The notes under the pieces are model-generated. The model was not told the DNA's origin. It made no database searches and worked only from the letters and a program-made list of their open reading frames with translations. 21,113 nt of DNA, from positions 1 through 21,113 of the IMG/VR virus record IMGVR_UViG_3300012954_002321; one strand, 5' to 3'. Source of the stretch: a virus. A program made the position numbers and the translations under genes. Below are positions 6,001 through 21,043 of the stretch, piece after piece; within the stretch, counting starts at the first letter, position 1; every line of letters begins with the position of its first letter.

Positions 6001-7420
6001 AAATATCCCATTGATTTGTGTTTGCATTAGTAGCACTATAAGTTCCAGATTCTAAAGTAAAGTCATATACTCTTGCAAGACCAATTTCTTTTCCAGGAGC
6101 AGTCTCTGAGTTAACACCAACTCTCTGGTCTCTCAAACTTACAACATAAGTATTTCCGACTCCAATCGTAGGTGCCCTGTAAACACTATTTACTTTAAAG
6201 GTCGCACCTGTATTATAAACAAAGTTTTGATTTTTTAAAGTTTTTGTAGTTCTTGGTTTATCTACATCAATAAAAGTAGTATTAAGAGTTTCAATTTCAT
6301 ATCCCTTTACAAACGCCTTTCCGGGAGAAAACTTATAAAGTGCAAGATTATCAGTTGGTGTTACTCCACCAGGAGTAAATTGACCAGCATTAAATATTCC
6401 ATTATTTCCAAGTTGGTCATTTAAAGCTTCTACTATAGAAACATCAAATGGTCTTACATAATAATCTCCTGATTCATCAAAAGTTCTCCTAGCCATCATA
6501 TCTCGAACATCGAGATAACCAGGACCTCCGCCAAGATCACCTTTTCTAGTCGAAGTTTCTTGAAGAATTCCGTCGATTACCGTTGCAAGTAAGATAAAAT
6601 TATCATCAGCAAAATCATCTAAAGGTTTTTTAAATAAACTTAAACTAATTTTAAGTCTATCAGCACCAGGAGCAGCAAAGTTGTTAAAACCTTGAGAGTT
6701 GTCATTAAGACTCTCATCTAAATCTGCTGTAATAACTTCTTCTTCGACAAAGAATCCAATTCTATAAGTTGAAGTATTACTTAGTTGATCTAGGATCAAA
6801 GTCTCTTTACTTACATTGATAAAATTGCCCCTTACAAAATAAACACCAGAATCTACAGAAAATGCAGAACCAGTGCCAGCAGCGTTGGCGACCAAAGTGC
6901 TTGCAAAAGGAGCTCCAACAGGAATGGTTGTATTTCCAAGTAGTCCAGAAATTATTATTTCATTGCAGGTTAAAGTTTCTGCATCAAAGAAAGTTTGCGT
7001 TGAATTATTAGTTGTACTAGATCCTAAGTAATTAATATAAAGAATCAAATTGCCATTTTCAGCATCTTCTGGTAAAACAACGCTATCAACAACAGCAGTT
7101 ACACCAGATCTGAGTCCAGTTATCTTTGTTCCGATTAGTTGATCCACGTATGCAGATACAGGAACCCCTTGGAAGTTATTTTCTAACTGGATTGCATAAT
7201 ACAATCTAGTATAAGAAGTATTTCCAGGAATTACTTTAGACCCTTCTTTAAAGAAGTGTTGCCCAAATCGTTCAATCTGATTTTGCAGGATTGATTGTAA
7301 GGAAGTTAATTCCCTTGCCTGAACAGGATAACCAGGTTTAAATAATACCTTGTGGTAATCGTTAGCGGGATCAAAATCGTCAAAATATGGCGCTACGTTA
7401 AGATTCGTCTGCTGTGGCAT
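1..7420 (-). CDS. DUF4815-type cyanophage virion structural protein, 3' end beyond window
   Basis: The frame is open from ATG at 7420 to the left edge (2473 codons, no stop seen); an in-frame TAA two codons upstream fixes the start. The N-terminus (VAPYFDDFDP, then KPGYPVQARELTSLQSILQ, residues about 10-45) is what I recognise as the DUF4815 start of T4-like cyanophage virion proteins. Further family landmarks are DLRPRVSEYTVAED (about 1025), a charged possibly coiled segment YKRYRMQDIKKLEDRIKSLE (about 1134-1155), FLISFWNGTMELTPATDSW (about 1275-1295), DPLAQSFLVEDETGVFITS (about 1695) and WEDLKFTLYRADF (about 1830). An Arg/Thr-rich stretch occupies about 1344-1402. The part beyond 1900 has GxGY and EII..RG modules like those of the upstream gp7-type gene. 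There is no signal peptide or membrane segment. It follows gp8 by six bases, the place of genes 9/10 in T4, so a peripheral baseplate or fibre-attachment role is inferred, not shown. Confidence 0.82.
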   Translation of the reverse strand, partial: MPQQTNLNVAPYFDDFDPANDYHKVLFKPGYPVQARELTSLQSILQNQIERFGQHFFKEGSKVIPGNTSYTRLYYAIQLENNFQGVPVSAYVDQLIGTKITGLRSGVTAVVDSVVLPEDAENGNLILYINYLGSSTTNNSTQTFFDAETLTCNEIIISGLLGNTTIPVGAPFASTLVANAAGTGSAFSVDSGVYFVRGNFINVSKETLILDQLSNTSTYRIGFFVEEEVITADLDESLNDNSQGFNNFAAPGADRLKISLSLFKKPLDDFADDNFILLATVIDGILQETSTRKGDLGGGPGYLDVRDMMARRTFDESGDYYVRPFDVSIVEALNDQLGNNGIFNAGQFTPGGVTPTDNLALYKFSPGKAFVKGYEIETLNTTFIDVDKPRTTKTLKNQNFVYNTGATFKVNSVYRAPTIGVGNTYVVSLRDQRVGVNSETAPGKEIGLARVYDFTLESGTYSATNANTNQWDISLYDVQTTTELTLNQAHTLSIPTFVKGNSSGATGFLRHSVNAGTAVTVYETNGTFINNERLSFNGTENGRIAIAVTENKISNIKSIFGSSNTLDLADGITGVNTFSANILQENKFTVGIATISPKSGGVSTITSSNALFPGTVVKENDLIKYTDTTAGLTEDPIIARVTNVATSGVAIEGVATVSGIASGFLPATTLSVTDLQVLTSELADSSDNTLFTPCPKPNVAGVDLSETIFTIKKTFSVDITSNQLSVAVSAGPNETFLPFDDERYILIRSDGVTEQLTSDRFEFAGDAKSLQIRNLGTNDTGATLIATLRKRSPTSKVKIKNRIKSIIVDKSRLEGSGIGTTTLNNGLTHGNFPFGTRVEDEVISLNSPDIISIQGIFESADTTTASAPKVSLLNIISPSTTTADILIGEKVVGETSGSIALVAEIVNASTISFIYKNESVFVEGETITFDESNITARVSVLDTPSFNISSNYIFNTGQEETIYSHGSIKRKAKNSPPVKQLKVYFTSASFESTDNGDIITVESYKNFDYSKDIKTINNFRNSDIIDLRPRVSEYTVAEDVRSPLEFAGRVFNGAGQSVQNILSSDEQITADIAYYQGRIDKVFLTKDGSFQVVYGVPSDDPVNPNPIDDALEICTVELPPYLFNVQDAKLAFNQYKRYRMQDIKKLEDRIKSLEFYTTLSLLEKETANLFIADSEGLNRFKSGFFVDNFSGFLAQEDTKANINNSIDRSNSELRPRHYTNAVDMILGPVVGRDPNADSSTTPIEGNNVRIGDDVLTLDYAEVSYITQAFATRTESVTPFLISFWNGTMELTPATDSWVDTTRLEAKIIQQEGNYTQAYDELVAAGRLDPQNGFGPIIWDSWETNWGGITEETTTRTRSTNGGPNTIHRQGPGGRSRTRTERRTVTDSVVEETFVTRTQSGVQSRNGTRSIITEQFDTSSIGDRVVSRDLIATMRSRNIEFVSKKMKPLTRMYGFFDGVDVTKYCVPKLLEISMTSGTFQVGETVEGRIVRTGLSDPTSAAPRITFRAAQINHREGGYDAPTKTFRQNPYTNRPLSNNYSSTSNILNVDTLSLSEQAQGEFFGYVQTGMVFVGKTSGAQATLTDVRLISDLSATIIGSLFIPDPNNVNFPKFETGTKAFTLLNDPDNNQDAATTIAEENFTSSGTLETIQENILSVRNARIEQKREFQERNVEQSLGTELVRSNTTTRERTQTIVTWYDPLAQSFLVEDETGVFITSCDVFFRTVDDMDIPVVFQIRSMVNGVPSTKVLPGSEIVLDPSDISISSDGSIATNVQFKAPVYVEGGTEYAICLASNSTKYSVYISRIGENDLLSDTFISNQPYLGSLFKSQNNTTWEPSQWEDLKFTLYRADFVGSGSVEFYSPELTQGNAQVAKLLPDPISISAKKIRVGLGTTVADAGYEIGNTFFQNGTNATGDLVGTAGSATGQMGVSNAGLGYIPDSGSQTYAGVNLVTLTGSGRGATAEISILNGSVVSNGATITSGGSGYQIGDVLGITTLGSNSVGRDAKLTVTGIGVTNELILDNVQGNFVVGGGNSMRYFNSVGVAQTLNNDLPAAPGGDVQIASIITINDGLHMNVEHTNHGGYFTENNVKLSGIKPDIKPTTLTAAYQSDSTDGITVGLGATFTSFEGVGVGTTNVGLILIEDEIIQYTNVSGNTIGGNIVRGPNPKSYPIGTPVFKYELGGISLDRINTTHSLSNVTEADPFTFDSYKVKIDVSANTGNARNTDVGFPQLQFNRSKTIGGANVRATQNMPFELITPNVHNLTVPGTTITGEIRTTTAKSFSGTEVPFQNAGFSDLVINQKNYFDTPRMIASKVNEDAYLTTVPGSKSMNMRLFLNSLDSRVSPVIDTQRVNAVLTSNRINDVITDYATDPRVDSIEEDPTAFQYISKEIVLENSASSLKIILAAHVNIDADIRAFYSVGKTPGTEPTFSPFPGFSNLNIRGEVIAPENNNGQPDSFVVKSSSLVHSADLADYR
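893..1012 (-). repeat. EII...RG module in the DUF4815 protein (residues about 2137-2176)
   Basis: LILIEDEIIQYTNVSGNTIG followed by GNIVRGPNPKSYPIGTPVF. This matches a common virion module of the form I-x-x-E-[IL]-[IV]-x-Y...[VI]-x-RG-x-x-G-[ST]-x-x-x-x-H-x-x-G, with the GT step altered. Three related copies lie in the giant wedge protein near 20640-20752, 16185-16315 and 11493-11622. Confidence 0.5.
1442..1650 (-). repeat. GxGY beta module in the DUF4815 protein (residues about 1924-1993)
   Basis: GVSNAGLGYIPDSGSQTYAG followed by TGSGRGATAEISILNGSVVS and ATITSGGSGYQIGDVLGI. It is the same unit as in gp8 and the gp7-type protein, here in the distal part of the protein. Confidence 0.65.
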
Positions 7421-7426
7421 AATTTT

Positions 7427-8980
7427 TTAGAACTGCAAAATAACTTTTATGTCTTCCTTTTGGTTCGACGATCTGGTAATAGATGGTCTATTGTCAACGT
7501 AGATAATATTTCCAGAGTGCTTTTTCACCTCAGGATTGGCAATACCATTCGTAAAACTCTGACCAAGATAGTATGTACGATTATTTATTATGGTAGATAT
7601 ACCAGTAAAGTTGGAATCAATAGTTAAGTTAGACCCAGAAGAAGGTGTAATTGTTAAACTACCACTTCCTGAAGGTGTAGATGTAAACTCCTGTAACTCA
7701 AATCCATATTGAGGTTGAGTTTGAGCGGTTCCAACTGTATTAAACCCGGCCAAACTTCTATCTTGCCAAAACTTCAAAACTCCAGTGGTCTGATCATAAC
7801 TAACAACTCTACCTACAGCAGTCACACCAGTTCCAACTGTTTGGACAAAGTAAGAGTCTGCTGTAAAAGTTGCAGTGCTATATCCTGTTCCAACTAATCT
7901 AAGGGCACCAACTGCAGATGCTTTGTCCAATGTCAAAATAGAAGATGATCCAAACTGTTCTGGATTTTCAACGACTCCAATTCTAGCAATTTGATTTCCA
8001 GTTATAAAATCTGGATTTTCATTATCGTTTTCAATTCTAGAATATAAAAGAACATTATATGCTCCCAACTCTCTGTATATATCTGCACCATGTCCTCCTT
8101 GAGGAGGAATAATTACATCTAAAGTTGGTCTAGTAGTTCCTGTTGGAACTCCGCCAGCGACCAAATCAACATTGCCGTAAGTATAACCAGATCCTTGGTT
8201 AGATACAATAACTTGACCTAATTGTTGATTACCATCAATAACAATAGTACACTCTGCACCAGTTCCATCTCCCTTAATTGGAACACCGGTGTAAGTTACA
8301 TTAGCAGTCCCTAAGCCAGCACCACGATTAGTAATAGTTACAATTTTAATGCTTCCATCAACAGCATTGTCTCTTACTGCTGCATTATCAGTTGAAGTTG
8401 ACCAGTCTCTGGGGACTGGCATATACTGAGTAGATTCAAATTTTACAACTTCACTTGGTTTAATAGTATAAAGATATTTCCAAATATAACCATCACCACT
8501 AGTGCCTGCACTTCTTGGTTCTAAATCGACAAAATCTGGTTCATCCAAAGATGCTTTCCCAGAAGGATTATCAGGATCTGTTCCATTTTGTAAGCAGATA
8601 TACACTCTGAAGTCACTATTCATTACAAAATAGTTTGAAAGATATAATGACGTTGAACCAGAGATCTTAGCTGTGTTAACTCTACTATAGTCGTGACGAT
8701 ACATGTCATACGTAGTTCCAGAACTCCAAGATCTTTTTGAAACTACTTGATTTGCATCAGAAGTATTAATTTTTTTAAGAGCGACCATTGTATCCCAATA
8801 GTCATTCTCTTGATCAAAGTTATCTTTAGGTGCAGGGGGACTGTTATCCCAATCAGTTTGATAATCTGTGGGATTAGGTAACGCGACAAAAGAATAATAT
8901 GAGTTGCTAGAGTTAGATACCCCAGCAACAAAATTCTTGGCGTTTAATATCCTAATCTGATCGGTTATAATGGCAGCCAT
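7427..8980 (-). CDS. 8: Baseplate wedge subunit gp8 (T4-like), enlarged
   Basis: In T4 gp8 joins the gp7-gp10 complex early in baseplate wedge assembly. This 517-residue product keeps recognisable T4 gp8 landmarks at both ends. ILNAKNF lies near the N-terminus (T4 ILNFYNS). SGDGYIWKYLYTIKPSEVV lies around 165-185 (T4 PGDGYVWEYLFEIPPDVS), followed by YMPVPRDW (T4 YIVVPWP). RIGVVENPEQFG lies around 335-346. HSGNIIYVDNRP near the C-terminus matches T4 HSGEMIYMENRP, and both proteins end in a short hydrophobic tail. T4 gp8 is 334 residues. The extra length falls in two places: a GxGY beta module at about 210-297 and a beta-rich segment at about 347-480. An in-frame TAG two codons upstream of the ATG fixes the start. 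It lies 24 bases after the gp7-type gene and 6 bases before the DUF4815 gene. No strong Shine-Dalgarno is visible. The T4 comparison is from memory. Confidence 0.87.
   Translation of the reverse strand: MAAIITDQIRILNAKNFVAGVSNSSNSYYSFVALPNPTDYQTDWDNSPPAPKDNFDQENDYWDTMVALKKINTSDANQVVSKRSWSSGTTYDMYRHDYSRVNTAKISGSTSLYLSNYFVMNSDFRVYICLQNGTDPDNPSGKASLDEPDFVDLEPRSAGTSGDGYIWKYLYTIKPSEVVKFESTQYMPVPRDWSTSTDNAAVRDNAVDGSIKIVTITNRGAGLGTANVTYTGVPIKGDGTGAECTIVIDGNQQLGQVIVSNQGSGYTYGNVDLVAGGVPTGTTRPTLDVIIPPQGGHGADIYRELGAYNVLLYSRIENDNENPDFITGNQIARIGVVENPEQFGSSSILTLDKASAVGALRLVGTGYSTATFTADSYFVQTVGTGVTAVGRVVSYDQTTGVLKFWQDRSLAGFNTVGTAQTQPQYGFELQEFTSTPSGSGSLTITPSSGSNLTIDSNFTGISTIINNRTYYLGQSFTNGIANPEVKKHSGNIIYVDNRPSITRSSNQKEDIKVILQF
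8090..8350 (-). repeat. GxGY beta module inserted in gp8 (residues about 210-297)
   Basis: IKIVTITNRGAGLGTANVTY followed by LGQVIVSNQGSGYTYGNVDL. It lies between the conserved YMPVPRDW and LGAYNVLLYSRI segments of gp8, where T4 gp8 has only a short connection. It is the same kind of unit as in the gp7-type protein. Confidence 0.7.
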
Positions 8981-8998: not shown

Positions 8999-9006
8999 TA
9001 TTTATC
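8999..9006 (-). promoter_or_regulatory. Candidate T4-type late promoter, GATAAATA, for gene 8
   Basis: The minus strand reads GATAAATA here, overlapping the TGA stop of the gp7-type gene. It fits the cyanophage late consensus NATAAATA (T4: TATAAATA), which is read by the phage late sigma factor gp55. Transcription would be expected to start a few bases downstream, leaving a short leader before the gp8 ATG at 8980. In AT-rich DNA an 8-base match may occur by chance, but its position in a 24-base gap is suggestive. Confidence 0.5.
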
Positions 9007-12000
9007 AGGAGTTTGCTGTATAATTTTTGGACTTCAAGAAATTAGATCTAACGACCCTTGTTGAAGTAGTTATACCTGAAGTATATGCAGTGTAAGTCTT
9101 TAGTGCAGATCTTACACTGAGATCAATTCTTCCCCAACTAAAATCACCAATACCACCATCGGAAGTTGTGATTCCAGTAAATCCAGATGGAACACTAGTT
9201 GCATCTACAAATAATCTCTTGACCATTGTAGATATCCCAACAACATCTCTTGTAAAAGTTTCTTCACTAGCAACTTCATATATTCCGTCTACAAAAGTAG
9301 ATCCAACTCCAACATTAGAGTTTCTGATTATAAAATAATCATTTGCTTGAATAGAAGAGATTGTTACTGCAGTTCCTGCAACGACGGAGTTTCTAAGGAA
9401 AGAGTCATAGGGAACATGTATATCAAAGATTAATTTTGGTCCAGCAGTAGTTCCAAATCCAACTATGGTGCAATTATCACCAAAATAATTAACTACATTA
9501 CATTCTTCTTCAGTATGTCCTGGAGGAGAAATAAGAACTGTAGGTGTACTTGTATATGTATAACCGACTCCAGGTGAAGTAATCGCAACACCTGTCACAG
9601 TTCCACCAGCACTTATGGTAACTGTACCAAACGCTCTAGATTCGGAAGTATAACCAAAACTTACAGTAGCAGTTGTATACCCAACACCACCATCAGATAT
9701 GACTACAGAGGAGATTGTTCCAAATCCAGAAACAACAGCTGTTGCAGATGCGCCAACCTTTGATTCCTGAGGAATAAATGTAATTTTGTCTTGATGTGTT
9801 AAATCTGCTGCTTCATTTTGAGGATTGAACAGAGGTCTTAGTGTATCAACATATACTACAGTGGAACCTATTCCAACATTTTTGATTATGTAGGAAGTAG
9901 GATTAATAACAGGTTCATAAATTTCTCTATCTTTACCTGTAGGAATACCATTAATAATTTTATCTTCAGTTTGTCTACACCAAATAACTCTTCTCTCTAA
10001 AGTTACATCGTTTGTCAATCCAGGTCCATCATATGGATTTGTAACTACATTACCAGTTGAAATGAGGTCAAGAACACTTCTTTTTTCCTCATCAAGATTT
10101 GGAGTTTGTGTTTCTGGAATATACTGAAGTTGTAAGGTATCGCCTTTTGTAACAGTTTCAATAATATCTTCAAATCTAACATCAGTATCACCATTTCCTT
10201 TGTAAAATAGAATACTAACAGTGTCACCAATTTTTAGTGGTTCAGTAAATGTTAAAGTACTTCCTCCACTAAACTCATATCCAACACCTGGTTCCTGTAA
10301 AATATCGTTAACAAAAATAATTAGTATATCCTGAACGTTAATTTTGGAACCTGGAGAAGCAACAATAGAAGTAACTGCTCCATTTATTTTAAGAGGGAAG
10401 TCTTTTCTTACACCATCAATAAGAACTTCAATATTATCAAGTAACTGTAAAGTTCCAACTGACCATCCTGAAAACTTATCATCTGAAATTTCATTGACAG
10501 TAATTTGAAACTCATTTCCAGAGAAAGATGATGTGGTTGGAATCCCTGTCGTTCCCCCAATAGCAACAGTTAAAATTGCACCATCTCTATATCCATAACC
10601 AGTATTTTTAATTTCAAAATCAATTACACTTGATCCATTTCCAACAACAACATCGATAGTTGCTTCAGTGCCGACTCCAGCGATAGAAGAAGAACTATAG
10701 AATAGTCGCATATCAGAATATGATAAAGGATCATCAAATACCACAAATGGTTGATTTGTATGTGTGAAACCAACACCAGGATTTGTAATGGCGACTCCTG
10801 TAATATGACCGTTACTGATAGTGGCAACTCCAACAAATTGTATATTACCAGTTCCAGTGCTGGAAGTTCCAACACCAACATTAACGGTCTGAATCCCAGA
10901 TCTATATCCAGATCCAGTATTACCAATACTAATGGAAGATATAGTTCCAAATCCAGAGATGATTGCTGTTCCACCAGCAGATATTAGAGGTTGATATCCA
11001 AATCCTTCAGTTGAACCAACGGATACGATTATTCCACCTTTAGGAAAACTTGATATACCAACGTCCGGTCCAAGAGGAGTTTGTGGTGAACTTCCATTAA
11101 ATGAAACAGTGGTGATTCCTGAAGATTCTGATAGAGTATAATCTCCAAGAGTCGATGGAACTTGGAAGATATCATTAATCAAAACAACAGCATTTTCATT
11201 TTCAATGCCAGTTATATTTGAACCAGATTGTTTCAGCGTAAAATCTTTTGTTGTTCCATTAAACTTATCGTTTATATTATCAAAAACATAATTTCGACTA
11301 TATGAATCATTGGAACTACCTGATATTCCAGATCTTATGAATGATCTACCTTGGAAAGTAGAACTTGTGGTAATTCCTACGAAATCTCTTTCATCTGGAG
11401 GATTAGTAGTAGATCCAATAGGTGTATTACCAAAAGGTGCCTCCACAAAGTTAAGGACATTATCAATAATATTGTAGTTTCCAGATATTTTTGTAACTAA
11501 GTCGCCAGTTGCTGCTGCAGCAACTTTAGTTCCTAACCATCCCCTACGAACTCTGATAATGTTAGTGCTACCAATACCAACACCTTCAATCTTCATAATT
11601 TCATCATTAATTTTAATTATGTCCGAACCAAAGAATGATGTTATTCCACTAAATTTAACCAGACTATCAAAGATGGTTACACTAGTTGATAAACCAGTTG
11701 TTACTGATGTAGAGACTATAGGCGATTGTAAAAGATTATCGATAGCAACTATAACCTTTGCATTTTGATTTGTTGCTATAAATCTATGAGATGTTCCAAT
11801 ACCCACACTTTCAAGTTCTACTGCAACAGGAACTGGTTTAAGTGCATTTTCGGCGCTATTTGCAATTTTAATTTTATTATCGTCTACTTTAATGGCAAAA
11901 ATATTCTCTCCAGGTAAGAAGGTTGTATTTGCTGCCCCTGTAAATGATGTTGTCGCGATTCCGATTGCAGATGAAGCAGTTCCCACATGAACATACTCAA

Positions 12001-15000
12001 TTTTTTCACCACTTACATAAAAATGATTTGGAATTGTAATCGTATTATTTGTCAAATCAACTACATTACTGTCATTGCCAACGAAATACCTTTCAAAAAT
12101 CTCATCATTTTTATGAGTCAATCCAAATGATCTCTTAACATCAGACTCAGTTCCACTATAAGAACCAAACTCTCCACCGATAAAAGCATTGGTAAATGTA
12201 ATACCAGTGCCTAACGTAGTATCTTGATTAAGAGTAAGTGCATTCTTAAATACGGTTACCTTAGTTGCAATACTTGGATTTGGAGTAAATAGCAATGAAA
12301 CTGTTCCTGCACTATCAATACTTGTACCAAAAGTTCCTAAACCAACTCCCGTTGAGCATTCCGCGTATTCAGTAAAATACGTGTCATAAGAATTTGATGC
12401 CGTGAGGTAATCATCAACTACAACTATTTCTGAGATTTGATACTCTCCATTAGTGGTGTCAGCAACTTGTGCGATGAAATAAGCAGAGTCGTAATTGTTG
12501 TCATATTGTGATACAGTTGTAACACCTGGCGAACCAGATGCCGATATGGTTGTTGTTCTACCATCAAGTTCAGAGAACTGCAATTTAGTTGTTGTTATTC
12601 CTGAAGTATTTTCAGACAATGCAATCTGAACCGTGTTTATCACACCCGTACTTCCAATACCTACTCCAGGATGGAAATCGATTTCTAAATTACTACCTGA
12701 TATTGCTGCAGAATAAGTGCCAAGTCCAGCGCCACCGTAGGAATCAAATCCTCCAGTTGTCAACTGTCCAAACTCAAGTAGTTCAACATTAGTTCCATCA
12801 TGAGACACACTAAGTTCAACTGTTTCAAATTTATCATTTACTGTAGAATCAGGATTGATAGTTACTAAAACTTTGGCAGAGTTGTAGGTACTTGCAATGG
12901 AAACAATAGTAGCATCGGATCCAGATGTTATTTCTGTAGATGATGTATCTACCTGAATACCACTACCGAAGAAAGAAGTTCCTATTCCTATAGTTGCGAT
13001 CCCACTAATATTGTAAGATAATGTTGTTACATTGTAATCATTGACTACGGACTTAGTTGGGAAGAATAAAAGTTGCCCATCAGTTCCTGTAATAGAGAAG
13101 TCAAAAGAACCTTGATCATATTGAGTTTCGATTCTTCCATATTGGTTCATATATGCTCTTACACCGTCATGAACCAAATCAACTATAAGAAGTTGTCTTT
13201 GTTGTGTAAATCTTTTATCTCTAACATAAGTTACATACTTTACTCCTCTTGATTCAGATATATCAAAAGTATTGACTACACTAAAAGGAGTAGATCTAGG
13301 TTCACTGTTAAATTGACCACTTATATCGTCAATGGACAAAACTCTGTTTCCAATAGACTCAAAGTAATCCAACAAAATTCTGTTAGAAAATATCATTTCA
13401 TTGGACATTGTGCCAGAGTTGATATTATTCTCTCTTACTAAATCAAAATCATTAACACAATTAAGATCAATAACTTCTTGTATATCATTTACGGATACAA
13501 TGCCATCAGTAAGGGATGTAGCTCCAGACCCAACCACCATCGAATTTTCATTAGTGCTTTCCAGTTGGTAATCAGAGAATTTCTTATAACCTAATGTATG
13601 ATTAGTTGATGAAACAACATCATTCCAAGTATCAAATGGAATTCCAGATCTAAGAGAATATGAGAATCTTTGATAATAGAAATTATCTTGAACTCTTTGA
13701 AGAGAATAGTTGAGTTCTCCAGATTCATTTTGCCATCCTCTAATAACTTTAGAAGATGCATTAAAATCAAAATAGGATTCAAAAGAAGTTATAGTTGAGG
13801 CAATACTAACAAACTTAGACGATCTACCAGTTATTTTTTCATCAACTTTAAAATTATCATCTGATGATACTCTTATAATTGAGGTTACTGGATTCCAATC
13901 CTCAACAACTCCAGTTGCAGAATCAGATGTAACAGTTTCTCCAATAATGTAATCGTTAAGAACTAGATTTGGCTCAAAGATAGGAAAATGTTTTTGTGCT
14001 GTAATTCTACCTGAAGAATTCACTTCATCAAAAGAACCAGGAAATTCATCATCATTGAATAGATTGGACATGTTGAATGTAACAGATCCAATACCACCAA
14101 GATTCTGACTTACTTCAGTTAACTCAAATAACTTGTAGTTATATCCGGCAGAGTTATAATTTTTTCCAGTAGATCCGACTCCAACACTAACATTTTCAAT
14201 AAGAACTTTATCACCAACAATAAAGGGGAAACTATTTAATGTAGAGAATCCCACATTCATTGTAACTATAACATCTTTAGTTGCAGGCAAGTATTCAATT
14301 GTACTAATGCCTACACCGGAGTCAGTTCTAGTTGGAATGATTGTAGGAGGTACGTTGGATATTCCATTTGTATTTTTAAGAATCCTAATATTAGATTCTC
14401 CAAGTCTCATTTCAAGATCTACGTCATTAACTGGTAGTTGTGTTTTACCGTCAATAACAATTAGTTTTGGAGTGATAGAGAAACCTCTTCCAAAAGAGGT
14501 AATACCAACGCTATCAAATACTGCTAATGGTTCAATGCGAATAGTTTGTGGGAATAGTAATCTTGGTTTTAGGGTGCTATCGGATGGAAGGTTGAATCCA
14601 ATATCCTGAGTTGAAGTAGATTTAAGAGAACCAATGGTAGAACTCTGTGCCTCTAAAATAGCACCAGAACCGATTCCAGTGTTTACCTTGGTAATAGATG
14701 GGAGTTCATAATAATCATTACCTTCATTTAAAATTTCAATCCTAGCGATTGGACCAGTTGTGTGGTCGCAATCAGTCATGTATGTGAGTTCTGATATAGA
14801 TGATGCATAGGATACGCTTTCTGGAGGATTGGGAAGATCGTATGAGAAAGAAGTTGAAGAATCAATTTTTATCCTATGATTACCCGAATATTGACTATTT
14901 TTTATTTTTATTTGGTTTCCAGAAATTACATCAGTATCGACATTTACATCTGACTTGATTGTTGGCAGACTTGCATTATATACTAAATCAAACTTATAGA

Positions 15001-18000
15001 ATAAATCATCGGGTAAATTTGAACTTACAGATAAAACTGCTTTTCCACCAGCAGATCCTACCTGACCTGATCTAGTATATTCAAATACATTGCTATTATT
15101 GGATTTGTTAAAAGGAACTTTAAAATCTTTATCTCTATAAAGATTTAAATCAAATGCAGGGTAGTTGGATCCCAATACAGAATATCCAAGAGAGGAGTCT
15201 GAAAGATCAAAAGTAACGGTCGAGTCTTTGTATAAAGTTATTGAAGGATTGATGGGGTTAATATTTCCTCCATCAGATCCAGTGTCAGCGATTGAAACTG
15301 TGACAGGAATATCTCTCGTAGCATCATAATATGTGTTAGACAACTTAAAGTTGTTTTCATCAACTTTAGAGATATAATAAATTTTTTCGTTAGTTAATCC
15401 GTTAGCTACATTACTACCAACATCTACATTATAAATTACCTTTTCTCCACCTTCAAACTCATGACTTTGAACAAAGATTGTTCCAGTTGAGGTGTTAATG
15501 CCAGTTGAAGAGAATCCAAGAGGATTTACAATAATATTTCTATTATAATCATTATATTTTACGACTACATTTTTATTTGTTCTGGGATTTACTGATATAT
15601 CAACTCTATGTTTTGGACTAATACCATGTGTTTCAGCTGTACTTACTGTTACAGTATTTTTCTTAATCTGTGCAGTTATTACAGTATGATTAGTAGTAAA
15701 ACTATGGGTATTACCTACACCTACACCTTTAAAGAATAATGTCGATGAATTCCTATGAGATGCAGCGACTCCAACAAAAGTCCCCGTTGTTCCGAGACCA
15801 ACTCTTACAGTTGCAATTCCAATAAGATCATCATCTATTTTTGCGACAAAAACTTTTTGTCCGTCAGATAAAGTTGCTCCAAGACCAACATTAGTTTCAT
15901 CTTCTACGTATAGACCTACTCCACCAGTTCCTGGTGAATATGTCAACTGATCGCCAGTTTTAAATTTATGATTTTTAAAGAAGAGAGATTTAGTTGGAAT
16001 AAACTTTTGAGTAATTCCTGCGCCTGGATTGGCAAAAGAAAGAGTTGAACCAATACCAATTCCAGCAGTGGTCCCTAATCCAACAGTTTCAGAGGGATCA
16101 AAATAAACTTGTTCATTTCTTGTAAACTCATAGGTTGAGGTAATACCAGTTAATATATCAAAATTTCTTGAATCTTCAAGTAGTAACTTACCAATAGTGT
16201 GTCCAGTAGAAACAGTTCCTCGAACTGATCTTAGAACTCTAAATCTTGAGTTTTCAAAATCAACGTTTAAGACTTTTACTTTTTCTGTGCCAATCTCTAA
16301 GACATCATTTACCTTTGTGGAGAGAATATTACCAGTCACACTAAAGTGAGTAACAAGACCAGTAACACCCTCAGTGCCAATTGCAACTGCTGTTGTTCCG
16401 ACACCAGCAAGACGAAGGCGATTTGAGGAAATTCCTACAGAATAAGATCCTTCAATTCCAGTGCCATTTGTTGAAAGTCCAGTTATAGAAACTATATCAG
16501 AACGTAAGAACTCATGAGGATTATCACAAACAACCTCATAAACTCCAGACGTTTTTGGATATATTTCTACATCAGTGATAGAACTTGAAGCAACACTTAT
16601 ATTAGTAATAGATTTACCTTTTACTCTACTAATTTTTGCATAAGCACTGTTTCCGCCAGTTCCTTCATTATCGAATACTAAAGTTTCTCCAACTTTGTAG
16701 TTAGTTCCACCTGTCAAGATACCTATGGCGTCAATTGATCCTGGTACGACAGCATTGATTTTTGCAGTTTGACTAAACTTATTTGGAATGAAAAGATATG
16801 AATATAACTGAGTTTCTCCCTCAATCAAATTCAATGGATCAGTATTTCTACGAAGATCACTTTCTTCAAAATTAAAGTCATCCTGATTTGAAGATCCAGC
16901 AAAATTAAACTCATTAGGAATTGAATGATAGTTATCCCCAATAATATATGGGAAAACGGGTTTCTTATATTTTTCAAATACTCCAGATTGCTCAGTTTGC
17001 AAATCATTAACTGTCATGAAATATGCATAAGTTCCTTTTGGATATTCGGGAGTTATACAAAATCTTCCATTATTTTCATCAAGAACAGTTTCATCAGTTA
17101 CATTTTTGTGAGTATAGTCCTCAATAAAAAATCCTTCTGGAAATACTGATAATGGTGGTCTTTCAGATTTTAAATCAAGAGAATACCCAGTCTTCATCTG
17201 AGATATTACGCCGCCACTTCTAGTGGTATAAGCGTATGGACCATAAATTGGATTGCCATCATAAGCAAATCCTAAAATAGGAGAATGTTGATCTGAATCA
17301 ACTTCAATACTACTTACTTTACGAAGATCACTTTCACCATAAAGTATATTTGCCTCAGAATCTACAGAAAAATTACTCTCTCTTAGAATCCTAGGTGCGT
17401 ATAAATGAGCAAACTGTAGTTCATATTTACCTGATATAACTACACCATCGTCTTTAGTAAAGAATGGCAAATTCTTTTCAAATGCATTTACTCTCCAGGT
17501 TTTAAGATTTGAGTAGAATCTTGGTGGTAGTTCAGAATCAATTGAGGTTTGAACATCAATAGAAGTGTTTGATATGTCAAATCCGCCACCAGGTTCAGAA
17601 ACTATTACTTCTGACAAACTTCCATTTGAAATAATGGGCACTAAAACTGCGCCTTGACCATCACCATTGATAACTAAATCGGGAGGAGTATCATATCCAT
17701 ATCCAGAATTTAAAATAATAACTTGTGTAATTTTTCCATTGTTTATGATAGGTTTAACTTGAGCATTTTTTCCACCATTAATTGTAATCGTAGGTTGACG
17801 ATCAAGATTAATAACTTCAGATGATCCATAACCAACACCTTCATTTTCAATATGAACAGATGTTATTGTGCCACGTACTATTGGTTCAACTGATGCCTTA
17901 AATGTTTCTGTGCCAACAGAGGAAATACCAACCTCGCCAGAGAGAGTAGCAGTAATCTCTGGATAGTTAAAGATATGAGTTCCTACACCTACAGAGGTAA

Positions 18001-21000
18001 TATTTTCATATTGTTTAGTTCTATAGAAAAATTCCTTATCTGAACTAACTCCAACAGCAGAAAGTTTGAATGAATCTTTGTCTACTGTTGTTACATAGTA
18101 TTCTGTATTATTGGATAAACCTTCAGCAACAGTTCCTTCTACAGTATACTTAACAGTTTCACCGTCTTTGTAATCATGATTTTTAATACTGATAACATTG
18201 GAAGAAGTATTGATTCCTGATATAGATGCGGTTTTCTTTTTAGATTCATATCCACTTCCGCCAGTAACTATATTAATTGAAGATACTATTGATTTTTTGT
18301 TTACACTCTGAAGAGCATGTTTACCAACGCCAAATCCAGTTAAGGAAATAGTGTTAATGCCAGATACAGCACTAGCTTGTGTTGGATGCAATCTAACAGT
18401 TGTATTATCGACAGTTGATACAAAATATAATGCACTTGTGTCCAGACCGACTATAGGTTGATAATCAAAAGTTTTATACGCTACTTGCTCTGCATTTCTA
18501 AATTTGTGGAATGTTGCGAAACCAATGGTATCATTAACTAAAGAAACTTTATCAGATGCTTGATCCGCAAAAAATTCTGGGGCGTGGTCAATCAACTTCA
18601 TGTTGACAATACCAAATGCACCTTGTCCATTTCCACCTTCAATTTTTAAAGTTGGTTTAGACAAATAATCAAATCCACCTTCAAGCACCCTTACTTCTTT
18701 AACAGAACCAGAAACAGAAAGATGACCAGTTGCTCCAGAACCAACAGGATCACTAATAATCAAATTTGGAACATTTATAACATCAATATTATTAGAAGGA
18801 AATAAGATATCAACGCTTTCTATAGCACCATATTTAACAGTATCTTTTGATTTATAATTTAAAACTTCTACTCCATTTATTAATATACCAGTGGTTCCTG
18901 GTGTGGTCGAAGTTTTTGTTCCTTGATTAAGAGGAGCAGATATTTTTCTTAAAAGTTTTTGTGGTTTTAATGTTTTTTCAAAATTAACGTAAGGTATGAT
19001 AGTGCTGTCAGTTACAGTTGTGCTACTATCAACTGATACGTATCTTTGATTGTAGATATCATCATTACTTTTTGCAAATTTTAAAGTAAAACCATCAACT
19101 CTTTCAACAAAATACAGTCCATCAGCAAACAAACCTGCATTTCGTGCTGTTCTTGTTTTTACTGTTCCATCAGAATCGATGTATTTTTGATCAAAAGTAC
19201 TTGCTGCATAATAAATTGCTTCACCAGTATAATATCCATGCTCTACTCCTGGACTTATTTTAAACTCAGTTCCTTCAAAGGTTCCAGAAAAAGTTATTTT
19301 TCTTTGAGTTACCTGAATGGGTTGAGCATTATAACTGGGGATAGACGGAGAGGCAACAATATAACTTCCATCATCAGTTTTATATAAGTTGTCAACACCA
19401 GTTGAGAACTGATTAATTTTTGAAAACGTGTTAGATAATCCTTTTTGAATTTTTCTTTGTATTTTACTTACTTGAGATTCTTCTAATTTTCCTTGACCTC
19501 TTACTCTAAAACTTTTCTCATTATCAATAGATATTACAACAGAACTTAGTTTTGTATTATCTTTTAAGATAACAAAAATAGCGTTACCGACTTTTAAATA
19601 ATGTTTAGAGTTTAATGTAACACTATAAGTAAAATCTGACTTATCAAGTAATTCAACACTGTCTACACCATAAATCGAAGCTACATTGTATTCCCATCCT
19701 CTAGTTAGAAAATTATTTTCAGAAACTCCGTAAGTGGTGACATTTGCAGTTGTTCCTTTTTTAAGGGACAAAGTATTTTCTGGTAGTTTAGGTGATGTTT
19801 TAAGTACAGAGGATATTCTAACTTTTATTAGTTCGTTTTGATCTAACTTTGATCTACCATATGTAAAGGTGTTAATACCAACTGTGGATGCATCATTGAT
19901 ATTTTTAGTGAGATTTGTTACTCCAAAAAATTGAGTTAATGATTTTGAAGTGTAAGATACTACACCAGTAGTTGTATCCGAATAAGTAACATACAACTCA
20001 CCAGTAGTTCCAAAACCAACAGTAGAATCAACATCAATAATAGTTGATCCAGAAGAAACTGCTCCAATGATTCTTGTTGATGGTTCTACACTGAAAGCAC
20101 CATACTCTACACCTTCAACAATAATATCTCTATTATATCCACCATCAAAATTTAATTTATAATATGATTGCCCAAATCCAACCTCAATCTTTTCCACAGA
20201 GGTGATTGGCGCATATGATTTTCTAATCTTATCATCAAACTTATATGCATCTTGATATAAAGTTGCAGTATCTAAATTTTCTGGATTACCCTCAATTGGT
20301 TCCACGATCAACTGATTTACTATTTCATACCTAGCATTAGATGGAGTAAACAAAAACTCCGATGGTCTAATAACTGTTACATCTTCATTATATAATGCTT
20401 TGAATAAAATTTTGAACGATTCGTCAGTTCCTTTACTGAGATAAAAATCTTTGGACTGTTTTAAGAAAATATTTTGATTAAGATCTTTGTCAAGGGTTCT
20501 GTTTTGTAATCCAGGGAGAAGTTGATTTTTTGTTTTAAGAAGAAATTCTTTTAAAAATACAACACTTAGATTTTCAATAACAGATCCATCATTATGGTCA
20601 TCTGCTTCACTTTCTTCAAATACCAATTCGCTATTGTTTACACCACTCTTATATGAAGTGATTCCAACAAAACCTCTTTTACAACCTGTAAACGAATAAT
20701 CAGTCTTACCTCTATACGTGATTATTTCATTATCAATTTTTATTAATCCGTAAGTATCTGGAAATCCTACAGTTCCAGTGGGAGATGATACCGGATCTAC
20801 TTTGATTGTTTTATCATAAAAATTAAGATCATCTTGCAAAATAACAGATTCAACTATATTCGCTGAATTGTCTAACTTGATGTATTCATCGATATTCTGG
20901 ATTAAATCAGCAGGTCCACTTTGATATTCCTGTCCAAGATAGTACTGCTTTAAAAAGGAGGATACTAATGGATAATCTTCTTGCACATATGCAGGAAGTT

Positions 21001-21043
21001 GACTGGAAACAACACTATTAAGTTGAACTCTGTTTTTTGACAT
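9005..21043 (-). CDS. 7: Giant gp7-type baseplate wedge protein (4012 aa)
   Basis: This is a single open frame of 4012 codons. The ATG is fixed by an in-frame TAA three codons upstream. T4 gp7 is the backbone of the baseplate wedge and has 1032 residues. Segments here resemble its C-terminal part: LPAYVQEDYPLVSSFLKQYY (15-34), QSKDFYLSKGTDESFKILFK (194-213, T4 RSYDFYSTKGIEASYKFLFK), and a separate block at about 2355-2490 with RVQDNFYYQRFSYSLRSGIP and NHTLGYKKF (T4 YINRSRSYYVMKIKSNLP, HPVGFGF). Between and after these lie many beta modules: GxGY repeats, HxFxxGE...VDxxxFKL repeats, EII..RG repeats, a YHYH-like domain (1240-1345), and dozens of G[VIL]G[ST]T turns. The C-terminal part has two fibre-like modules (VVLINDIFQVP, IIFVNDILQEP). 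There are no membrane segments or signal peptide. Its position between a probable gene 6 end and gene 8 matches T4. Alternatively it is a cyanophage-specific structural protein that merely shares motifs with gp7. Confidence 0.78.
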   Translation of the reverse strand: MSKNRVQLNSVVSSQLPAYVQEDYPLVSSFLKQYYLGQEYQSGPADLIQNIDEYIKLDNSANIVESVILQDDLNFYDKTIKVDPVSSPTGTVGFPDTYGLIKIDNEIITYRGKTDYSFTGCKRGFVGITSYKSGVNNSELVFEESEADDHNDGSVIENLSVVFLKEFLLKTKNQLLPGLQNRTLDKDLNQNIFLKQSKDFYLSKGTDESFKILFKALYNEDVTVIRPSEFLFTPSNARYEIVNQLIVEPIEGNPENLDTATLYQDAYKFDDKIRKSYAPITSVEKIEVGFGQSYYKLNFDGGYNRDIIVEGVEYGAFSVEPSTRIIGAVSSGSTIIDVDSTVGFGTTGELYVTYSDTTTGVVSYTSKSLTQFFGVTNLTKNINDASTVGINTFTYGRSKLDQNELIKVRISSVLKTSPKLPENTLSLKKGTTANVTTYGVSENNFLTRGWEYNVASIYGVDSVELLDKSDFTYSVTLNSKHYLKVGNAIFVILKDNTKLSSVVISIDNEKSFRVRGQGKLEESQVSKIQRKIQKGLSNTFSKINQFSTGVDNLYKTDDGSYIVASPSIPSYNAQPIQVTQRKITFSGTFEGTEFKISPGVEHGYYTGEAIYYAASTFDQKYIDSDGTVKTRTARNAGLFADGLYFVERVDGFTLKFAKSNDDIYNQRYVSVDSSTTVTDSTIIPYVNFEKTLKPQKLLRKISAPLNQGTKTSTTPGTTGILINGVEVLNYKSKDTVKYGAIESVDILFPSNNIDVINVPNLIISDPVGSGATGHLSVSGSVKEVRVLEGGFDYLSKPTLKIEGGNGQGAFGIVNMKLIDHAPEFFADQASDKVSLVNDTIGFATFHKFRNAEQVAYKTFDYQPIVGLDTSALYFVSTVDNTTVRLHPTQASAVSGINTISLTGFGVGKHALQSVNKKSIVSSINIVTGGSGYESKKKTASISGINTSSNVISIKNHDYKDGETVKYTVEGTVAEGLSNNTEYYVTTVDKDSFKLSAVGVSSDKEFFYRTKQYENITSVGVGTHIFNYPEITATLSGEVGISSVGTETFKASVEPIVRGTITSVHIENEGVGYGSSEVINLDRQPTITINGGKNAQVKPIINNGKITQVIILNSGYGYDTPPDLVINGDGQGAVLVPIISNGSLSEVIVSEPGGGFDISNTSIDVQTSIDSELPPRFYSNLKTWRVNAFEKNLPFFTKDDGVVISGKYELQFAHLYAPRILRESNFSVDSEANILYGESDLRKVSSIEVDSDQHSPILGFAYDGNPIYGPYAYTTRSGGVISQMKTGYSLDLKSERPPLSVFPEGFFIEDYTHKNVTDETVLDENNGRFCITPEYPKGTYAYFMTVNDLQTEQSGVFEKYKKPVFPYIIGDNYHSIPNEFNFAGSSNQDDFNFEESDLRRNTDPLNLIEGETQLYSYLFIPNKFSQTAKINAVVPGSIDAIGILTGGTNYKVGETLVFDNEGTGGNSAYAKISRVKGKSITNISVASSSITDVEIYPKTSGVYEVVCDNPHEFLRSDIVSITGLSTNGTGIEGSYSVGISSNRLRLAGVGTTAVAIGTEGVTGLVTHFSVTGNILSTKVNDVLEIGTEKVKVLNVDFENSRFRVLRSVRGTVSTGHTIGKLLLEDSRNFDILTGITSTYEFTRNEQVYFDPSETVGLGTTAGIGIGSTLSFANPGAGITQKFIPTKSLFFKNHKFKTGDQLTYSPGTGGVGLYVEDETNVGLGATLSDGQKVFVAKIDDDLIGIATVRVGLGTTGTFVGVAASHRNSSTLFFKGVGVGNTHSFTTNHTVITAQIKKNTVTVSTAETHGISPKHRVDISVNPRTNKNVVVKYNDYNRNIIVNPLGFSSTGINTSTGTIFVQSHEFEGGEKVIYNVDVGSNVANGLTNEKIYYISKVDENNFKLSNTYYDATRDIPVTVSIADTGSDGGNINPINPSITLYKDSTVTFDLSDSSLGYSVLGSNYPAFDLNLYRDKDFKVPFNKSNNSNVFEYTRSGQVGSAGGKAVLSVSSNLPDDLFYKFDLVYNASLPTIKSDVNVDTDVISGNQIKIKNSQYSGNHRIKIDSSTSFSYDLPNPPESVSYASSISELTYMTDCDHTTGPIARIEILNEGNDYYELPSITKVNTGIGSGAILEAQSSTIGSLKSTSTQDIGFNLPSDSTLKPRLLFPQTIRIEPLAVFDSVGITSFGRGFSITPKLIVIDGKTQLPVNDVDLEMRLGESNIRILKNTNGISNVPPTIIPTRTDSGVGISTIEYLPATKDVIVTMNVGFSTLNSFPFIVGDKVLIENVSVGVGSTGKNYNSAGYNYKLFELTEVSQNLGGIGSVTFNMSNLFNDDEFPGSFDEVNSSGRITAQKHFPIFEPNLVLNDYIIGETVTSDSATGVVEDWNPVTSIIRVSSDDNFKVDEKITGRSSKFVSIASTITSFESYFDFNASSKVIRGWQNESGELNYSLQRVQDNFYYQRFSYSLRSGIPFDTWNDVVSSTNHTLGYKKFSDYQLESTNENSMVVGSGATSLTDGIVSVNDIQEVIDLNCVNDFDLVRENNINSGTMSNEMIFSNRILLDYFESIGNRVLSIDDISGQFNSEPRSTPFSVVNTFDISESRGVKYVTYVRDKRFTQQRQLLIVDLVHDGVRAYMNQYGRIETQYDQGSFDFSITGTDGQLLFFPTKSVVNDYNVTTLSYNISGIATIGIGTSFFGSGIQVDTSSTEITSGSDATIVSIASTYNSAKVLVTINPDSTVNDKFETVELSVSHDGTNVELLEFGQLTTGGFDSYGGAGLGTYSAAISGSNLEIDFHPGVGIGSTGVINTVQIALSENTSGITTTKLQFSELDGRTTTISASGSPGVTTVSQYDNNYDSAYFIAQVADTTNGEYQISEIVVVDDYLTASNSYDTYFTEYAECSTGVGLGTFGTSIDSAGTVSLLFTPNPSIATKVTVFKNALTLNQDTTLGTGITFTNAFIGGEFGSYSGTESDVKRSFGLTHKNDEIFERYFVGNDSNVVDLTNNTITIPNHFYVSGEKIEYVHVGTASSAIGIATTSFTGAANTTFLPGENIFAIKVDDNKIKIANSAENALKPVPVAVELESVGIGTSHRFIATNQNAKVIVAIDNLLQSPIVSTSVTTGLSTSVTIFDSLVKFSGITSFFGSDIIKINDEIMKIEGVGIGSTNIIRVRRGWLGTKVAAAATGDLVTKISGNYNIIDNVLNFVEAPFGNTPIGSTTNPPDERDFVGITTSSTFQGRSFIRSGISGSSNDSYSRNYVFDNINDKFNGTTKDFTLKQSGSNITGIENENAVVLINDIFQVPSTLGDYTLSESSGITTVSFNGSSPQTPLGPDVGISSFPKGGIIVSVGSTEGFGYQPLISAGGTAIISGFGTISSISIGNTGSGYRSGIQTVNVGVGTSSTGTGNIQFVGVATISNGHITGVAITNPGVGFTHTNQPFVVFDDPLSYSDMRLFYSSSSIAGVGTEATIDVVVGNGSSVIDFEIKNTGYGYRDGAILTVAIGGTTGIPTTSSFSGNEFQITVNEISDDKFSGWSVGTLQLLDNIEVLIDGVRKDFPLKINGAVTSIVASPGSKINVQDILIIFVNDILQEPGVGYEFSGGSTLTFTEPLKIGDTVSILFYKGNGDTDVRFEDIIETVTKGDTLQLQYIPETQTPNLDEEKRSVLDLISTGNVVTNPYDGPGLTNDVTLERRVIWCRQTEDKIINGIPTGKDREIYEPVINPTSYIIKNVGIGSTVVYVDTLRPLFNPQNEAADLTHQDKITFIPQESKVGASATAVVSGFGTISSVVISDGGVGYTTATVSFGYTSESRAFGTVTISAGGTVTGVAITSPGVGYTYTSTPTVLISPPGHTEEECNVVNYFGDNCTIVGFGTTAGPKLIFDIHVPYDSFLRNSVVAGTAVTISSIQANDYFIIRNSNVGVGSTFVDGIYEVASEETFTRDVVGISTMVKRLFVDATSVPSGFTGITTSDGGIGDFSWGRIDLSVRSALKTYTAYTSGITTSTRVVRSNFLKSKNYTANS
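9521..9724 (-). repeat. GxGY beta repeat pair near the C-terminus of the giant wedge protein (residues 3774-3841)
   Basis: ISSVVISDGGVGYTTATVSF followed by GTVTGVAITSPGVGYTYTST and PTVLISPP. It closely resembles the pair at 3364-3437 (ISSISIGNTGSGY / GVAITNPGVGF), which suggests duplication within the gene. Confidence 0.72.
10733..10954 (-). repeat. GxGY beta repeat pair in the giant wedge protein (residues 3364-3437)
   Basis: ISSISIGNTGSGYRSGIQTV followed by GHITGVAITNPGVGFTHTNQ and PFVVFDDP. This is the same two-strand unit as the central cluster, here followed at about 3473 by a further copy (IDFEIKNTGYGYRDG). Confidence 0.7.
11840..12050 (-). repeat. HxxxxGE...VDxxxFKL beta module, distal divergent copy
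   Basis: NTITIPNHFYVSGEKIEYVH, then LPGENIFAIKVDDNKIKIAN. It keeps the NHxxxxGExIxY and KVDDxxIKI landmarks but has a longer loop with an internal GIATTSFTG segment. Confidence 0.55.
13574..13981 (-). other. gp7-like block B (residues about 2355-2490 of the giant wedge protein)
   Basis: A run of LNDYIIGETVTSDSATGVVE, then VDEKITGRSSKFVSI, then RVQDNFYYQRFSYSLRSGIP, FDTWNDVV and NHTLGYKKF. In T4 gp7 the stretch just after the SYDFYSTKG region reads EDLVGQTIYTATGRC, later NNIDYINRSRSYYVMKIKS, SRWKSDVI and HPVGFGF. Order and spacing within the block agree, so it appears to be the continuation of block A displaced by about 2,200 residues. Confidence 0.5.
15325..15490 (-). repeat. HxxxxGE...VDxxxFKL beta module, second clear copy
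   Basis: GTIFVQSHEFEGGEKVIYNV, then NGLTNEKIYYISKVDENNFK and L. It aligns by eye with the copy at 18055-18215 through HxFxxGExVxY, the GLxNxxxYY step and VDxxxFKLS. Confidence 0.65.
17009..17326 (-). other. YHYH-like domain inside the giant wedge protein (residues about 1240-1345)
   Basis: The segment has, in order, HSPILGFAYDGNPIYGPYAY (H1253, DGNPIYGP 1262-1269), LDENNGR (1321-1327) and TPEYPKGTYAYFMT (about 1331-1343). This matches the usual order of the YHYH family: an H-x(n)-DGxPIYGP core, LDxxNG, then the YHY motif. The terminal YHYH signature itself is degenerate here (YAYF), so the histidines of the name motif are missing. Its function in virions is unknown to me. Confidence 0.6.
17576..17881 (-). 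repeat. Tandem GxGY beta repeats in the giant wedge protein (residues 1055-1156)
   Basis: Three successive copies: ITSVHIENEGVGYG, ITQVIILNSGYGYDTPPDLV and LSEVIVSEPGGGFD, separated by NGGKNAQVKPIINNG and NGDGQGAVLVPIISNG. The unit is roughly: small-x-V-x-[VI]-x-x-x-G-x-G-[YF]-x-x-x-P-x-[VL], then G-x-G-A...I-x-x-G. Isolated copies also occur near 778-816, 915-935, 1435-1475, 2100-2141 and 3473-3496. Confidence 0.75.
18055..18215 (-). repeat. HxxxxGE...VDxxxFKL beta module, copy in the giant wedge protein (residues about 943-996)
   Basis: SNVISIKNHDYKDGETVKYT, then GLSNNTEYYVTTVDKDSFKL. It is among the clearest copies of a module found about seven times in this protein. Other copies lie near 19060-19285, 18373-18560, 16395-16540, 15805-16000, 15325-15490 and 11840-12050. 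Confidence 0.65.
20339..21001 (-). other. gp7-like block A (residues 15-235 of the giant wedge protein)
   Basis: PAYVQEDYPLVSSFLKQYY followed, after an EII..RG module at about 98-135, by QNIFLKQSKDFYLSKGTDES and ILFKALYNEDVTVIRP. T4 gp7 has an equivalent run in its C-terminal third: DSNFEAFCEAYIQYL, later SYDFYSTKGIEASYKFLFK and VLYNEEVEIEI. This is the most conserved-looking part of the protein and the chief reason for the gp7 call. The T4 sequence is recalled, not aligned here. Confidence 0.65.

Follow-up and report, generated by a model that had tools for sequence, protein, structure and literature searches.

A 4,012-residue gp7-like baseplate wedge protein whose core blocks are separated by about 2,200 residues

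The window analyzed here is a stretch of viral DNA of 21,113 nucleotides (IMG/VR record IMGVR_UViG_3300012954_002321, positions 1 to 21,113). It contains three genes, all on the minus strand, which encode a 4,012-aa protein, a 517-aa gp8, and a VrlC/DUF4815 protein:

9005 to 21043, minus strand: gp7-like baseplate wedge protein, 4,012 aa, a single open frame (phrog_2885 'baseplate wedge subunit', E 0)
7427 to 8980, minus strand: gp8 baseplate wedge protein, 517 aa (PF09215, E 1.2e-16; phrog_438, E 8.7e-166)
2 to 7420, minus strand: VrlC-like/DUF4815 protein of at least 2,473 aa, which runs off the window (PF16075, E 9.3e-49; phrog_358; at the position of VrlC in S-SM2)

A second contig from the same virus (L060) shares 99.5% identity with the window across 17,319 bases and carries gp25 and gp6 immediately upstream of the gp7-like gene; the gene is thus placed between gp6, known from L060, and gp8, which lies downstream of it in the window. 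The isolated cyanophage S-SM2 has the order gp25-gp6-gp7-gp8-VrlC, and this order fits a T4-like wedge. Its homologue (ADO97439.1, 4,156 aa), located between gp6 and gp8, was already annotated as gp7 'baseplate wedge initiator', so the protein family was known by annotation, and several relatives carry the gp7 label in GenBank. Some PHROG labels for the family look wrong: phrog_3465 ('head closure Hc2') spans the gp7 of HTVC008M (L010:11727-14777) end to end, and phrog_4406 and phrog_701 ('head and packaging') match cyanophage gp7. As the window is a 21-kb virus record, its very long open frame might be an artefact of metagenome assembly or fusion; we consider this extremely improbable, because the second contig is nearly identical, the isolated phages S-SM2 and Bellamy carry the same gene, and 41 complete giant ORFs were found.

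Within the 4,012-aa protein we distinguished three conserved blocks and the sequence that separates or follows them:

20858 to 21043, minus strand: N-terminal helical block, residues 1-62, proposed counterpart of the T4 gp7 helical domain at 643-689
20567 to 20857, minus strand: insert slot 1, residues 63-159 (97 residues), from the helical block to block A
20348 to 20566, minus strand: block A of the gp7 core, residues 160-232 (profile and tblastn matches)
20180 to 20347, minus strand: start of the domain V slot (slot 2), residues 233-288, common to HTVC008M-like and compact gp7s (hhalign)
14750 to 20179, minus strand: main expansion within slot 2, residues 289-2098, with repeats of a module found in shorter proteins
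17006 to 17302, minus strand: YHYH domain, residues 1248-1346, covering profile positions 87-183 of 193 (PF14240, E 1.1e-22)
13736 to 14749, minus strand: end of slot 2, residues 2099-2436, common to HTVC008M-like gp7 (hhalign)
13553 to 13735, minus strand: block B of the gp7 core, residues 2437-2497 (profile matches)
9008 to 13552, minus strand: C-terminal tail (slot 3), residues 2498-4012, with further module copies near 3311-3486 and 3749-3839

Blocks A and B are present in one copy each, with A first. A preliminary description of this DNA had proposed that two neighboring stretches of T4 gp7 are widely separated here, and the positions bear this out. In the window protein, FYLSKGTDESFKILF, the block A motif, begins at residue 200, and DNFYYQRFSYSLRS..., the motif of block B, at 2453, while the same two stretches occupy residues 731-749 and 858-890 of T4 gp7, 108 residues apart. 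Measured between the HMM-defined blocks, the gap is 2,204 residues in the window protein versus 100 in T4, and 1,515 residues follow block B versus 142 in T4, in agreement with the insertion of about 2,200 residues and the further 1,500 downstream that had been proposed. For the block A region (window 20324-20596), DUF735 (PF05246) was a further match, at E 0.0016 and below that family's cut-off.

When the whole window protein was compared with the PDB by plain phmmer, block A alone was matched, in KP1 gp7 (E 0.0092). With tblastn, block A found 1,759 phage records at E <=0.01, T4-likes included. The records retrieved with block B, 375 at E 1e-5 and 490 when E was allowed up to 1, came mostly from cyanophages, with Stenotrophomonas, Sinorhizobium, Pelagibacter, and Nitratidesulfovibrio phages also present in the wider list (E up to 1). 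Profiles were needed to detect the T4 link of block B. We searched 177,635 PDB sequences with a two-block profile combining compact, pelagiphage-like, and giant proteins and containing zero Straboviridae rows. T4 gp7 ranked first (E 5.8e-10) and KP1 gp7 second (E 1.9e-9), both with colinear A and B; in T4 the matched stretches were 725-759 and 807-892, the second of which had E 0.6 by itself. Compared with Straboviridae gp7 by hhalign, block A reached a probability of 97.3% (at 726-759) and block B 67.1% (at 866-892), and block B built from giants only reached 41.6%. All three profiles scored above the best of 100 column shuffles (76.8 versus 27.6 for A, 37.1 versus 26.1 for B, and 33.3 versus 23.2 for the giants-only B). 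The window protein has a block A corresponding to T4 residues of about 694-763 and, downstream of it, a block B corresponding to about 858-892. On these profile comparisons, both the gp7 identity and the match of each block to gp7 that the preliminary description had suggested were recovered, and the assignment of the window protein as a gp7 core is well supported.

Block B alone gave a weak match, although at the expected position in gp7, and we considered whether only block A derives from gp7, block B being an unrelated end-module common to structural proteins of marine phages, in which case there would be no split. The block B profile by itself had KP1 gp7 as its top PDB sequence at E 0.15, with T4 gp7 unlisted at E up to 10; its giants-only hhalign value is the low one given above; and against Pfam wedge families block B alone found no match for the window, for S-8S53, or for T4's own block B. 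Still, this top PDB sequence is a gp7, as is the one match obtained when the T4 genome was searched in six frames (residues 865-892 of gene 7, E 0.0019), both at the expected residues, and the block B scores lay above every column shuffle. In addition, block B fragments of P-SSM4, HTVC008M, SRB7757, and BUCT-ZZ01 matched PF23786 (E 4e-5 to 0.0016, each under the cut-off), a family that contains both blocks, A around 154-230 and B around 231-281 of its 284 positions. The PF23786 Baseplate_wedge cut-off (27 bits) was passed by SRB7757, BUCT-ZZ01, YB07, phiN3, HTVC008M, and the compact L026 protein, and was not reached by the window protein (14.6 bits). In compact relatives, a single protein of 503-607 aa contains both blocks, with 104-269 residues between them, and its core aligns to T4 gp7; an alignment of five compact relatives with six Straboviridae gp7s along the core has nine invariant columns, which run through both blocks. 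In a reverse test on a small set (14 proteins plus decoys), a Straboviridae core profile aligned without a break to residues 9-283 of the 586-aa SRB7757 protein and matched the window protein at block A; block B of the window, S-SM2, and S-8S53 was not found directly in this set. Outside Straboviridae, the two blocks fell into separate ORFs only in cut or frame-broken genes. An unrelated origin of block B is therefore quite unlikely in our estimation, and we treat A and B as two parts of one gp7 core.

The helical block HMM matched the N terminus of all 16 non-Straboviridae gp7s, eight of which were its seeds, and it gave a weak colinear match to T4 gp7 at 645-692 (probability 4.4%, E 0.009), in the PF21428 region (T4 643-689). 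When a profile of T4 gp7 residues 1-635 was run against 15 non-Straboviridae proteins, no match rose above those of shuffled decoys. This is consistent with the earlier proposal that the T4 N-terminal part is absent, here for about 635 residues without a detectable counterpart, and it makes the window protein a homologue of the gp7 core, not of a full T4-type gp7. In T4 gp7, Pfam places domain V (PF21427) between the two blocks, at 766-861, and domain VI (PF21456) after block B, at 920-1012. With E values up to 1 allowed, neither family appeared for the window, and other sequence fills both positions. The preliminary description had the core 'opened' by the insertion. The long insertion between the blocks is there, but the opening is not a fresh one, because T4 already has domain V at this place: a pre-existing slot is about 22 times larger here.

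We also compared a structure model of the compact L026 protein, built from an alignment of 41 rows (three whole proteins, 19 block A fragments, and 19 block B fragments). The model was weak (pLDDT 57.1, pTM 0.42). In Foldseek its top three matches were T4 and KP1 baseplate chains of 1,004-1,031 residues, which we took as gp7 (best E 1.7e-4), and the same chains were the top three in VIA-align (Z 8.0, 7.8, and 7.4; rmsd 12.2, 11.2, and 10.9 Å). The best structural match spanned both blocks and the stretch between them (residues 718-887 of the T4 baseplate chain) with an rmsd of 12 Å. The next VIA-align rows were unrelated, with Z up to 6.4, and a Z near 8 can arise by chance; the predicted similarity to gp7 chains may be taken as support, not proof. 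A weak VIA-align row was chain 8kea_d of cyanophage A-1(L) (Z 4.4), a chain that the available text of the A-1(L) paper (PMC10966104) does not identify. A model of a natural 997-aa HTVC-like protein (L044, 12 rows) was unusable (pLDDT 37.4, pTM 0.24).

Slot sizes were compared in a reference set of 22 gp7 proteins (16 non-Straboviridae and six Straboviridae), most of which were seeds of the A model and seven of the B model, with S-CREM2 in neither. Block A precedes block B in all 22. The A-B gap is 95-100 residues in the six Straboviridae, 104 in SRB7757, 199 in BUCT-ZZ01, 269 in YB07 and Yut2, 520 in HTVC008M, 800 in phiN3, 1,639 in S-CREM2, 2,143-2,227 in S-SRM01, ACG-2014f, S-8S53, the window, S-SM2, Bellamy, and P-SSM2, 2,721 in S-RIM2, and 2,812 in P-SSM4. 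In nature, the slot comes in sizes of about 100, 200, 260-270, 510-540, 800, 1,640, 2,140-2,250, and 2,720-2,810 residues. Eight of the ten named cyanophage proteins besides the window's have a gap >2,100, the exceptions being S-CREM2 and BUCT-ZZ01; the 2,200-residue version is frequent among cyanophages and not peculiar to the window phage. Slot 1 has no insert in YB07, SRB7757, BUCT-ZZ01, and phiN3, measures 95-103 residues in the window, HTVC008M, S-CREM2, and six other giants, and reaches about 600 in P-SSM4 and S-RIM2. The stretch after block B ranges from 15 to 3,717 residues in the 16 non-Straboviridae proteins, the value for S-RIM2 being a lower bound because its gene is cut at the locus end. 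S-CREM2 and phiN3 have large A-B gaps with almost no tail, so the slots expand independently. Natural compact gp7s of 466-607 aa carry the same core, and the largest gp7 fetched, that of P-SSM4, has 7,312 aa.

A scan of 5,340 ORFs of at least 60 aa from 139 fetched loci identified 101 with block A, 120 with block B, 86 with both, and none with either block twice. The 15 ORFs with A only comprised five from Straboviridae, in which B was below threshold, nine cut by a contig end, and one from L029; among the 34 with B only, 33 were cut by a contig end and one was again from L029. In this HTVC-like contig (L029:4751-5423) the gp7 gene is frame-broken between the blocks, and A and B lie in successive frames. 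The A-B gap exceeded 2,000 residues in 56 ORFs and fell within 2,144-2,252 in 54 of them (mean 2,207, s.d. 19), while the tails of 40 complete giants were 1,435-2,670 residues long (s.d. 252). The narrow length range is partly a matter of kinship, because most giants were retrieved for resembling block B of the window (the best 80 of 126); nor are the loci independent, several being near-identical and L060 being the window's own virus. The more distant S-8S53, ACG-2014f, S-SRM01, and P-SSM2 still keep the gap range, but S-RIM2 and P-SSM4 do not. Searching viral contigs with the SRB7757 protein and genome contigs with the compact L026 protein gave nothing new, and the L025 and L026 searches recovered their own contigs alone.

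Both ends of slot 2 are related to shorter gp7s. By hhalign, HTVC residues 1-289 aligned to window residues 1-288 (E 2e-13) and HTVC 495-822 to window 2099-2505 (E 3.8e-14), and compact gp7 residues 79-189 aligned to window 188-297. Between the two HTVC-matching ends lie 1,810 window residues with no single colinear counterpart in HTVC008M-like gp7. Within this expansion HTVC modules were matched repeatedly, at window residues 734-813, 1050-1214, and 1429-1476; HTVC 355-595 together with compact 208-374 recurred in the window protein at about 734, 1050, 1429, 2094, 3311, and 3749, the weaker of these matches having probabilities of 29-77%. These repeated matches make it look as if the protein grew in part by multiplying a module that the slot already held. 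The repeats emerged with profiles; self-BLAST of the window protein found none at E 1e-3, and seven pieces of the protein outside the blocks found nothing in Pfam under E 0.1 except YHYH. The filling of the slots is likely to consist of beta modules, judging from the repeat matches and low-confidence models. In compact gp7s (YB07, L006:6803-8314; L026:2454-3854) the A-B slot contains a GxGYxxGD module similar to the T4 tail sheath protein gp18 in its domain I (below the curated cut-off of PF22639, at E 3.6e-5 and 1.4e-4; PDB tail sheath chains, E 0.003-0.05). The gp8 of the window (7427-8980) has a GxGY-type motif in its middle, around residues 215-270, with a weak phrog_460 match (205-268, E 0.11), and such a module may be common to neighboring wedge proteins.

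The YHYH domain scored 81.4 bits against a curated cut-off of 25 bits, with the second half of the profile alone. Counted by a short motif, YHYH was present in the A-B slot of 54 of the 56 giants and was not found in S-SRM01 and ACG-2014f. A published prediction describes the domain as a metal-dependent, tail-associated hydrolase (PMC7824862, in the portion consulted). An alternative reading takes the insert and tail as host-recognition arms, that is, receptor-binding or hydrolytic modules including YHYH mounted on a gp7 core. There is a possible parallel in Vibrio phage XM1, where an unresolved core-domain loop (80-106) and the C terminus (201-242) of gp17 each anchor six tail spikes, as described in the accessible text of PMC10457771. 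In 20 giants, one of which is L060, identity to the window is even, at 37-62% per 100 residues along the protein and 37-60% within the insert, and the length of the insert has an s.d. of about 1%, unlike host-range modules. An evenly conserved insert of near-fixed length, in a set of giants most of which are kin to the window, argues for a built part of the baseplate and not a host-range tip. We regard host-recognition arms as a possibility worth keeping, though a distinctly less likely one than a structural role for the insert and tail.

Our preferred reading, to which we assign a probability of roughly 70%, is that the gene encodes the gp7 of a Kyanoviridae-type cyanophage in which a conserved core has been expanded at three slots, with the insert looping out and the insert and tail together forming an outer layer. 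The sequence supports a conserved core made of the helical block, A, and B, corresponding to T4 gp7 at about 643-892, the T4 link of the helical block being weak. It also supports extra sequence at the three slots: 97 residues ahead of A, 2,204 in the T4 domain V slot that separates A from B, and 1,515 after B on the domain VI side. The long insert occupies the A-B slot and is partly made of repeats of a module that shorter relatives hold there too. Such a core would act as T4 gp7 does, holding gp6 and gp8 in the wedge, with A and B joined in one domain and the insert looped out from it. By analogy with XM1, the two large expansions would project from the wedge periphery, where they may contact cells, stiffen the baseplate, or do both. 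Because their length and sequence are conserved and not hypervariable, we infer that insert and tail may form a fixed, ordered outer layer of the baseplate that includes the YHYH domain.

More broadly, the A-B gap could be a general expansion dock, holding from 100 to 2,800 residues, in T4-related myophages, and the giant gp7 of cyanophages and pelagiphages together with VrlC could build a whole outer layer replacing the gp10-gp11-gp12 pins, in a differently triggered baseplate. This wider proposal is speculative, and we think it somewhat doubtful. We searched nine non-Straboviridae genomes for the T4 families concerned. The gp8 family was present in all nine (seven over the cut-off), the gp11 and gp10 C-terminal families in none, and the gp9/10 N-terminal domain was missing from eight. 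The single gp9/10 N-terminal match was in P-SSM4 (L014:25478-26707), in the gene directly after gp7. The idea that the gp7 insert replaces the gp10-gp11 pins was lowered, since phiN3 and HTVC008M also do without the gp11 and gp10 C-terminal families at a gp7 of about 1,000 aa; pin loss alone is not tied to the giant form.

In the portions consulted of earlier papers, T4 gp7 was reported absent from pelagimyophages and cyanomyophages and apparently substituted by VrlC (PMC7029224), an earlier comparison placed gp7 among the non-cyanophage core genes (PMC3037559), and its identities to other phages were tabulated as 4-11% (PMC5349666). Virions of S-CREM2 contained its 1,937-aa homologue, represented by 91 unique peptides (PMC10665884, in the portion consulted). 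Our searches of the open-licence PMC literature turned up no account of a split gp7 core. Contrary to the published absence, the 1,016-aa HTVC008M protein and the giants retain the gp7 core, and VrlC is a separate gene. The retained core places marine T4-like phages in the same wedge plan, and differences between baseplates become testable, with natural proteins available at many intermediate sizes.

T4 gp7 (NP_049765.1, 1,032 aa; PDB 5IV5, 5HX2) is a monomer present in six copies per tail that forms part of the wedge and adjoins gp6, gp8, gp9, and gp10 (PMC3004832, in the portion consulted). Like the window protein, it has A then B and gp6 and gp8 as neighbors, and its helical region before A may correspond to the helical block; it differs in having only 100 residues between A and B and 142 after B, and in a 635-residue N-terminal part without a match here. 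XM1 gp17 (242 aa) is presented in the accessible text of PMC10457771 as the orthologue of T4 gp7, and there a loop of 27 residues interrupts the core domain. The natural compact forms from Stenotrophomonas phage YB07 (503 aa), Nitratidesulfovibrio phage SRB7757 (586 aa), and Synechococcus phage BUCT-ZZ01 (607 aa) have the same three blocks, but with A-B gaps of 269, 104, and 199 residues, respectively, and no slot-1 insert; the YB07 and BUCT-ZZ01 genes directly follow an annotated gp6/wedge gene, and the SRB7757 record carries no annotations. The 'putative structural protein' of Pelagibacter phage HTVC008M (AGE60389.1, 1,016 aa) shares the position and block order of the window protein and matches both ends of its slot 2, but its A-B gap is 520 residues, its tail 202 residues, and it has no YHYH motif. 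S-SM2 gp7 is the same in layout, lying after gp25-gp6 and before gp8-VrlC, with a helical block, A, and B, and with slots of 96, 2,216, and 1,649 residues; it differs from the window in sequence alone, at 64.5-66.9% DNA identity where the two align.
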